Both the position numbers and the translations under genes were made by a program. Shown piece after piece: positions 29,957-31,651 of a stretch of 34,006 bases of DNA. Within the stretch, counting starts at the first letter, position 1, and each line of letters begins with the position of its first letter. Below the pieces are notes generated by a model, which was not told where the DNA came from, ran no database searches, and worked only from the letters and a program-made list of their open reading frames with translations. The DNA lies in the NCBI GenBank assembly GCA_003153435.1, contig PLYR01000084.1:1-34006 (forward strand), written 5' to 3'. The DNA is from Bacteroidota bacterium. GTDB lineage: Bacteria; Bacteroidota; Bacteroidia; Palsa-965.

Positions 29957-30751
29957 ATGTATTCATTCTGGTTAAGCTGTCTGGCATCTGTTTTCCTGAG
30001 CCTGTTTTCAGGAGGGAAATTCACGATGATCAAACATATTGATGGGAAGGTGAATGGAATATCAAGCGATGAATTGCAAAACCTATATCTGATCAAAAAT
30101 GAGGTGCTAGAGAAATATGATGCGAGTGGAAGCTTCTTGTATTCTTACAGCGATAACACCCTGGGTCCGATTAGCTTTGTTGATGCTGCGGATCCAATGA
30201 AACCTCTGGTTTTCTACCGGGCATTTGCCCAGTTTGTGGTATTAGATAATACGTTAACCATCAGTGGTCCCCCTGTGCCTTTGCAAAATTACGGATATGA
30301 GCAGGTTACCCTCTCCTGCATGTCTTATGACCGTGGATACTGGTTTTATAACCCTGCAAATTTTGAGCTGGTTCATATGACTTCCACGGATATTGCAGTG
30401 GACAAAACCACCGGCAATATCTCCCAGTTACTCGGAATTTCCCTTCACCCGAATTACCTTCTGGAGCAAAATAACAAGGTCTTTCTGAACGACCCGGAAA
30501 CTGGAATTCTTGTGTTTGATGTGTATGGCGCTTACTTTAAGACCTTGCCTATAAAAGGACTGAATCAGTTCCAGGTTAGTGGGGAAAAGGTCATCTATCT
30601 GGAGGGAAAGAAGATCAGAACCTATAATTTTAAAACGCTTGAGGATGAAACGGTCCCTCTCCCTGATTCCACAGCAATCAGTATCAGGATTGAGAAAGAG
30701 AGGATGTTTCTACAGAATGATAAGGGTGTGGATGTTTATTCAGTGAAATGA
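29957..30751 (+). CDS. Hypothetical secreted propeller-like protein
   Basis: A 264-residue protein, the last of the sppA operon. An N-terminal signal peptide (MYSFWLSCLASVFLSLFSGG) is followed by recurring short beta-strand units of about 40 residues: LQNLYLIKNEVLEKYDASGSF, MSYDRGYWFYNPANFELVHM, NNKVFLNDPETGILVFDVYGAYFKTL and GEKVIYLEGKKIRTYNFKTL. This is the pattern of a beta-propeller (NHL/6-bladed type) in which each blade ends in a hydrophobic-aromatic-charged strand. No active-site residues can be named. It is probably periplasmic or outer-membrane associated. Its function and its link to SppA, PolX or GH3 are unknown. No terminator with a T-run follows its stop. Confidence 0.72.
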   Translation: MYSFWLSCLASVFLSLFSGGKFTMIKHIDGKVNGISSDELQNLYLIKNEVLEKYDASGSFLYSYSDNTLGPISFVDAADPMKPLVFYRAFAQFVVLDNTLTISGPPVPLQNYGYEQVTLSCMSYDRGYWFYNPANFELVHMTSTDIAVDKTTGNISQLLGISLHPNYLLEQNNKVFLNDPETGILVFDVYGAYFKTLPIKGLNQFQVSGEKVIYLEGKKIRTYNFKTLEDETVPLPDSTAISIRIEKERMFLQNDKGVDVYSVK

Positions 30752-30827
30752 AGTCTCCTTCAGAGTAAAATTAATGAACTATAAATCAGTTTATTGCATA
30801 GATGAGTATTAAAAAAACGTCGACGAA

Positions 30828-30859
30828 TTTGATATTTTAGAAAGTTATAGGTACTTTTG
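30828..30859 (+). promoter_or_regulatory. Promoter of the candidate small RNA
   Basis: TTTG (30828-30831), exactly 20 bases, then TACTTTTG (30852-30859): a full match to the Bacteroidota promoter, with the same spacing as the asnB and Phe-leader promoters. It points into a stretch without a convincing gene, ending at the terminator at 30971-31005. Transcription would start near 30863. Confidence 0.78.
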
Positions 30860-30862
30860 TTA

Positions 30863-31005
30863 CCGATTAGAATGGAATATCAGTTATCGTGTGTGGGTGC
30901 TGATAAATTTCTCTAGTTAATAATTGGTTTGTGTGGTAATCCTGTGAAAACAGGAATTTTCTGTGTGTAAAAGGCCGCCTTGTGTGAGGGCGGCCTTCTT
31001 TTTTT
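30863..31005 (+). ncRNA. Candidate small RNA with four UGUGUG motifs
   Basis: A unit of about 140 bases from a full-consensus promoter to a strong intrinsic terminator. Predicted local stems are UAUCAG/CUGAUA (30878-30883 with 30900-30905), CCUGU/ACAGG with a GAAA tetraloop (30941-30954) and the terminator stem. UGUGUG occurs at 30890-30895, 30930-30935, 30962-30967 and 30981-30986, always in a predicted loop or linker. The only open frame is 14 codons (30872-30916, MEYQLSCVGADKFL); its composition suggests no attenuation role, and no gene follows on the strand. I recognise no known RNA family (not 6S, SRP or tmRNA by eye). The exact 5' end is inferred. Confidence 0.6.
30971..31005. terminator. 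Strong terminator of the small RNA unit
   Basis: AAGGCCGCC pairs with GGCGGCCTT (9 bp) around a 9-base loop, followed by C and seven T residues on the plus strand. On the minus strand the hairpin is followed by TTTT and may also end the ThiE/TenI operon, whose stop is at 31016. Confidence 0.88.
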
Positions 31006-31015
31006 ATTCCTTTTA

Positions 31016-31651
31016 TTACTCGGCTGTAAGGTTGAGTGCTTTAAATTTATTAAGAATATCAATATAAAATTGCACGGGATCTTTGGAAGACCAGAGGGAA
31101 CTGTTCAGGATAAGGCCATCGAATCCTATTTCTACGATATTTTCAATTTTGCTTCCATCCACTCCTCCTCTTGCAACGATTTTAAACGGGGTCTTGCTTA
31201 TGGCTGCTTTTAGGCTATGCTCGTTGAACCCTGCCTGAAATTTGCCGCTGATACTGTCATAGATCGGGGATAAGAATACATAGTGATAAACATTTTCTTC
31301 TTCATAGAGGGATGCAAGTTTCCGAAATGAAGTAGAGACCGTGATATTGGGCTTTTTAAAACGAATCAAGCGGAGGTTAATCCAGAGCCTTATCTTCTTT
31401 TTGAGGTGGGTATGAGTAAGGTGAATACCTTTCAAATTAAATTTAAGGGCAAGGTTATGGTGAGAATGAATCACCACGCGGTTGTGAAACCGGGCTGGGA
31501 TTTTTTCGAGATAGTTGCTTAACTCCTTTGTTGAATAGCGGGGTTTCCGGACGTGAAAGGTTTCTAGTCCCAATTCAAAAAGTTTGGTGGCAATAAGCAC
31601 TTCCTGATTGATGTCGGGGGTTTTGGAAGGGGTCAGGACGTATAGCTTCAT
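31016..31651 (-). CDS. ThiE/TenI-like thiamine phosphate synthase family protein
   Basis: A 211-residue TIM-barrel protein of the ThiE/TenI family. KLYVLTP opens the first strand, ETFHVRKPRYS is the substrate-side loop, HLTHTHL a middle strand, and VFLSPIYDSISGK the strand and loop of the phosphate-binding part. KIVARGGVDGSKIENIVEIGFDGLILNSSLW forms the last two strands. ThiE joins hydroxymethylpyrimidine pyrophosphate and thiazole phosphate; TenI is an aminotransferring tautomerase. The motifs do not decide between them here. The start codon overlaps the stop of GGGP synthase by four bases (ATGA), so the two are translationally coupled. No TPP riboswitch is visible upstream of the operon and no other thiamine gene is in the window, so a role outside thiamine synthesis is possible. 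Confidence 0.78.
   Translation of the reverse strand: MKLYVLTPSKTPDINQEVLIATKLFELGLETFHVRKPRYSTKELSNYLEKIPARFHNRVVIHSHHNLALKFNLKGIHLTHTHLKKKIRLWINLRLIRFKKPNITVSTSFRKLASLYEEENVYHYVFLSPIYDSISGKFQAGFNEHSLKAAISKTPFKIVARGGVDGSKIENIVEIGFDGLILNSSLWSSKDPVQFYIDILNKFKALNLTAE

Follow-up and report, generated by a model that had tools for sequence, protein, structure and literature searches.

A newly found UG module is common to a free-standing small RNA of a little-known soil Bacteroidota genus and to the yqeY 3'UTR of its sister genera. The small RNA (~142 nt; 30864-31005, + strand) lies in the window, which is the whole stretch of DNA analysed (34,006 nucleotides; contig PLYR01000084.1 of assembly GCA_003153435.1). 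It carries the hexamer UGUGUG four times in positions predicted to be unpaired, and these repeated motifs probably allow it to affect other RNAs or a putative protein.

The small RNA gene and its fold

A promoter of the Bacteroidota type, a transcribed stretch of ~142 nt and a terminator, with no convincing gene between, are all present as a sequence-only reading of the window had described them. The 5' end is placed from the promoter (+/- 3 nt), and full copies measure 142-147 nt. The predicted fold is much more stable than that of shuffled sequences (-41.1 kcal/mol vs -27.2 +/- 3.5, z -4.0) and contains three stem-loops, again as had been claimed: i) stem-loop 1 (30865-30918, + strand), with a UGUGUG in its loop, whose 5' stem folds alike in four homologs while the loop sequence is not conserved; ii) stem-loop 2 (UCCUGUGAAAACAGGA; 30940-30955, + strand), a predicted fold that is kept in homologs; and iii) an intrinsic terminator (hairpin 30971-30997, T-run to 31005, + strand) with UGUGUG in its loop, which is also found by the covariance model R2 described below.

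Pairs of stem 1 survive sequence changes, for example from G-C to A-U (in the relative G002) and from U-G to U-A, and one pair of the terminator stem has gone from A-U to G-C by a double change; with three full sequences these structure statistics are thin. Since the plain MAFFT alignment is out of register by one column, RNAalifold run on it lets stem 1 pair with linker 3. The stem-1 structure was taken instead from single-sequence folds and a hand alignment.

Other identities for the region were rejected. The only notable ORF is a 14-codon ATG frame and the frames differ between homologs, which leaves no small protein. Phage records gave no match, and a phage origin was discarded. In the Rfam search over the window only a tRNA matched at the gathering cut-off; the best sub-threshold score at the small RNA was 27.1 bits vs a cut-off of 70, and a known family was likewise rejected. 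It is highly probable that a conserved small RNA gene is real here.

Conservation within the genus

The genus sample consisted of four genomes, three of them incomplete: G000 (the window's own, 98% complete), G001, G002 and G003. Conservation in close relatives had been set beforehand as a check, and the RNA was found in G001 and G002 with the same neighbours, the region matching at 76-79% identity. Three full copies and one contig-cut copy (in G001) of the RNA gene are known from the genus; none was found in G003, whose genome is 62% complete. The contig-cut copy (L005:1-156) is a second, diverged version of the promoter and 5' stem, next to which the upstream gene is also present a second time; it may stem from a duplication or from an assembly of mixed strains. 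No paralog was found in the window's own genome by DNA, by the exact two-motif pattern or by R2.

The upstream neighbour encodes a 264-aa protein (29957-30751) that has no Pfam match and is kept beside the RNA in the genus. It closes a run of co-directional genes that includes sppA (from 24969) and ends at 30751, and downstream lies a convergent TMP-TENI (thiamine-phosphate-synthase-like) gene ending at 31016. Such a position would suit an ordinary end-of-operon or convergent-gene terminator, UG-rich by low complexity and conserved by recent common descent only. The conservation, however, is patterned. The mean pairwise identity in three genomes is 0.85 for the block upstream of the promoter, 0.41 for the promoter spacer, 0.83 for the -7 box, 0.27 for the stem-1 loop, 0.91 for linker 3, 0.95 for the terminator and 0.39 after the T-run. 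The same UG module also occurs at another locus in other genera, where R2 found it independently. An ordinary terminator is thus a very unlikely explanation.

Promoter and upstream block

The promoter consists of a -33 element, TTTG (30828-30831, + strand), and a -7 element, TACTTTTG (TANNTTTG; 30852-30859, + strand). TTTG is invariant and TA-N-TTTTG is retained in four homologs. The spacing of 20 nt between the two elements is also invariant in the four, while the spacer sequence itself drifts; a fixed spacing with a free spacer sequence is the pattern expected from a promoter. Since 434 kb (both strands) hold 11 instances of the strict pattern TTTG-N19..21-TANNTTTG, the match by itself is only suggestive, and more weight falls on the conservation of the promoter.

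A block of ~60 nt ending in the -33 box (ACTATAAATCAG...ATTG..TAGATGAG...TCGACGAATTTG; 30768-30831, + strand) is conserved about as well as the stems of the RNA. It holds an imperfect palindrome, AAAAACGTCGA/TCGACGAATTT, around TCGACGA, and two ATARATSAG-like words 17 nt apart. The block pattern has no further occurrence within the genus. An exact search of 84,980 genomes with a 17-mer of the block gave, beyond the G001 copy (L023), matches without wider similarity to the region. The retention of so long a block, unique in the genus, suggests regulator binding, and it is probably a binding region for a transcription activator or another regulator.

The UGUGUG motifs

The mean unpaired probability is 0.44 over the whole RNA vs 0.75-0.97 at the four UGUGUG motifs (all on the + strand), which occupy the unpaired places claimed for them earlier. 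Motif 1, in the loop of stem 1 (30890-30895), has a mean unpaired probability of 0.97; G001 also has a UGUGUG in this region and G002 has none. Motif 2, in the linker between stems 1 and 2 (30930-30935; 0.75), is retained in G002. In the G001 RNA it is gone and a new UGUGUG appears in the loop of stem 2; the motif seems to have been relocated to another loop rather than lost. Motif 3, in the linker ahead of the terminator (30962-30967; 0.93), and motif 4, in the terminator loop (30981-30986; 0.84), are invariant in three genomes, and motif 3 recurs at the same place in the sister-genus yqeY 3'UTRs.

Every full homolog in the genus has three or four copies of the motif, the UG clusters numbering four in the window RNA, four in G001 and three in G002. 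TGTGTG occurs at 76 sites in a 400-kb sample of the same genome (both strands), with a maximum of two per 142 nt; by our own arithmetic, a Poisson estimate, four in one 142-nt stretch would arise by chance with a probability of ~1e-9. The UG motifs are quite probably the functional part of the RNA.

The UG module in the yqeY 3'UTR

In the sister genera the module follows yqeY, a gene whose identity was confirmed by Pfam and which is preceded by a gene that we take, from its sequence, to be ftsZ. All eight sister-genus genomes (seven of a second genus and one of a third) carry the module in this 3'UTR. The layout is a stop codon, GUGUGUUGU, (AA)UUGUGUUUGUGUGU, the terminator stem and a GUGUGU loop. 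Two genomes have a weaker version: in G004 the linker is reduced and in G011 the terminator loop is without UG. Viewed locus by locus (L128-L133, L135, L137), these 3'UTRs show a strongly patterned element of UG repeats that closes with the terminator. Double changes occur in three of the nine pairs of the terminator stem, with every cell paired, a result reached by 3 of 500 shuffles.

The module is absent from yqeY in G000 and G001 of the window's genus, where GTGTTAAATGTGTTTGC (G001) and GTGTTCATCGTGTTTG (G000) after the gene may be its remnants. The RNA, in turn, is absent from the thiE-side locus in other genera. In the window's genus, then, yqeY has lost the module and the free-standing gene carries it. 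Architecture and short UG stretches are common to the two versions, the free-standing RNA and that in the yqeY 3'UTR. Their flanks and stems differ in sequence, and it is therefore possible that the two versions arose convergently.

Covariance-model searches

R1, a model covering the entire RNA, had weak matches in four genomes of the second genus, all in the yqeY 3'UTR after ftsZ. Weak R1 matches in G000 (L073, L076) were rejected as ordinary terminators without UG. Since R1 mixed real and chance matches outside the genus and an independent test was wanted, a second model, R2, was made with no other input than five terminators of yqeY 3'UTRs, and was searched against 395 genomes of the class (383 of them outside the family) at E<=0.01. 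The window RNA is the sole R2 match in its genome at this cut-off (33.2 bits, E 0.004). R2 also recovers the RNA in G001 and G002; G011 and G003 are below the cut-off. Five matches pass outside the family, and three were examined in detail: the two-motif module is complete in G284 and partial in G338, and G380 has only the linker motif. The R2 results and the double changes in the yqeY stem establish that the UG module is a feature of this family and is rare elsewhere.

The G284 element (L150:1501-1550), in another family of the class, is an intergenic terminator with UG linker and UG loop near a deaminase-like gene. G002 has a second terminator at an unrelated locus (L148:1501-1542) with UGUGUGUG in its loop and without a UG linker.

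In all module-bearing genomes of the family the terminator is immediately preceded by a UG stretch, usually with another in the loop. This arrangement could mark a cis-acting 3'-end element, serving termination, 3'-end processing or stability, that is attached to a small RNA in one genus and to yqeY elsewhere; the few look-alikes on other terminators, in the loop in G002 and in linker and loop in G284, agree with such an element. The free-standing RNA, however, has two further UG motifs ~35-80 nt upstream of its terminator. UGUGUG is present in one of the 78 hairpin-plus-T sites of the genome, namely the window's own, and a general terminator element is not expected to be single-copy. A cis-acting role is on balance unlikely. 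Because a mere cis-element of yqeY would hardly be expected to turn up again as an independent gene under a promoter of its own, the occurrence of a free-standing gene in one genus vs a yqeY 3'UTR in its sister genera argues for action in trans, which we consider likely.

The question of a protein partner

Three to four short, phase-independent motifs, unpaired and with unconserved surroundings, correspond to the anatomy of CsrB (PMC7652899). The UG motifs might then bind and sequester a putative UG-binding protein of a non-RRM type, with the yqeY 3'UTR of the sister genera doing likewise. The seeming move of one G001 motif to another loop is in line with titration, as is the copy number: the exact two-motif pattern finds the module in seven family genomes, with exactly one hairpin-bearing copy per genome. 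The base-pairing seeds of LhrC share this anatomy, so it does not separate titration from pairing. In the stretches sampled, other genes show no enrichment of UG motifs at their starts or at their ends, and hence no regulon of a UG-binding protein is visible.

Titration is also weakened by the loss of its candidate class. The earlier interpretation holds as far as it concerns a free-standing, conserved small RNA with repeated unpaired UGUGUG; the RRM-domain protein that it proposed as partner has to be abandoned. Of the 12 family genomes, only G004 and G010 have a Pfam RRM_1 domain; the other 10 (G000, the window's own, as well as G001-G003, G005-G009 and G011) have none, the Bacteroides control being positive. 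Some of the genomes without RRM_1 are near-complete and bear the UG module, and with its absence from the window's genome, at 98% completeness, the RRM partner was rejected. Titration of a protein of another type is possible, if somewhat improbable. To our knowledge, post-transcriptional control in Bacteroidota beyond Bacteroides is almost unexplored, and RRM proteins, the proposed hub of such control, are missing in the window's genome.

Proposed base-pairing mechanism

In the mechanism proposed here, the free-standing gene would be transcribed from its own, probably activator-controlled promoter, and the working parts of the RNA would be the redundant single-stranded UG motifs shown in the hairpin loop, the linkers and the terminator loop. 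Each motif would serve as a GU seed; the CA-rich mRNA stretches with which it pairs would probably lie around the start codons of the targets, and translation would be repressed. In the sister genera the yqeY 3'UTR module may be released, or may act as a 3'UTR-derived RNA. By analogy with known small RNAs, pairing of GU seeds with CA-rich mRNA is tentatively taken as the mechanism, with a slight lean over protein titration.

Target sites were sought in sampled stretches, with genes and start codons called by a simple ORF rule and dinucleotide shuffles as controls. CA-repeat 5-mers around start codons (-40..+20) number 70 in the sister-genus genome G007 vs 44.2 +/- 7.5 expected, a count reached by none of 200 shuffles. 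When split by region the excess is weaker, the z values being 1.1 (upstream), 2.7 (coding bases 1-60) and 2.3 (tails). The sample of the window's own genome shows no enrichment of these 5-mers around start codons (28 vs 34.9 +/- 7.0). In the G007 stretches (L173-L192), the start of a tuf-like gene has two ACACAAAC-like stretches.

A broader picture is plausible, though short of probable: a global post-transcriptional UG-motif circuit, in an order mostly without RRM proteins, in which one RNA module, residing in the yqeY 3'UTR in most genera and in a free-standing small RNA under separate regulation in another, controls either a putative UG-binding protein or a CA-rich mRNA regulon. If true, this would be an instance from nature of an independent small RNA arising from the regulatory 3'UTR of a gene next to ftsZ. 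The UG motif itself is a concrete handle for the search for a partner.

Comparison with known systems

CsrB, whose partner is CsrA, carries about 18-22 copies of a GGA motif in loops and other unpaired positions (PMC7652899). The window RNA resembles CsrB/RsmZ in having identical repeated motifs in such places. It has, however, three to four UG motifs instead of GGA; GGA occurs in it just twice, both times in stem arms and never in a loop. FopS and GibS of Bacteroides thetaiotaomicron are bound in single-stranded regions by RbpB, a small RRM protein (PMC11697453). They too are small RNAs of Bacteroidota with the same promoter type, but the window RNA belongs to a genome without an RRM_1 protein. 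The RbpB CLIP motif is 41 nt long, and the main text of that paper makes no mention of UGUG (PMC11697453). At the window RNA, the scores of other Bacteroides small RNA families fall far short of the Rfam gathering cut-off.

GcvB of enteric bacteria pairs through its GU-rich region R1 with CA-rich repeats near ribosome-binding sites (PMC3879156), and the window RNA similarly offers unstructured GU-rich sequence suited to CA-rich repeats near start codons. GcvB differs in having one long GU-rich region and in belonging to Enterobacteria, and the window RNA has no Rfam match to it. LhrC of Listeria monocytogenes has its motif three times, redundantly, and each copy, whether it lies in the loop of a stem, in a linker or in the terminator loop, is able to bind target mRNA (PMC4132741). 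Like the window RNA, LhrC is short and places its short redundant motifs in these three kinds of position, the linker being single-stranded. The LhrC motif is CU-rich (UCCC) and directed against Shine-Dalgarno regions, and LhrC is a five-copy RNA of Firmicutes with unrelated sequence, whereas the motif of the window RNA is UG and its gene single-copy. The proposed mechanism would resemble that of LhrC in the redundancy of its seeds and that of GcvB in their type.
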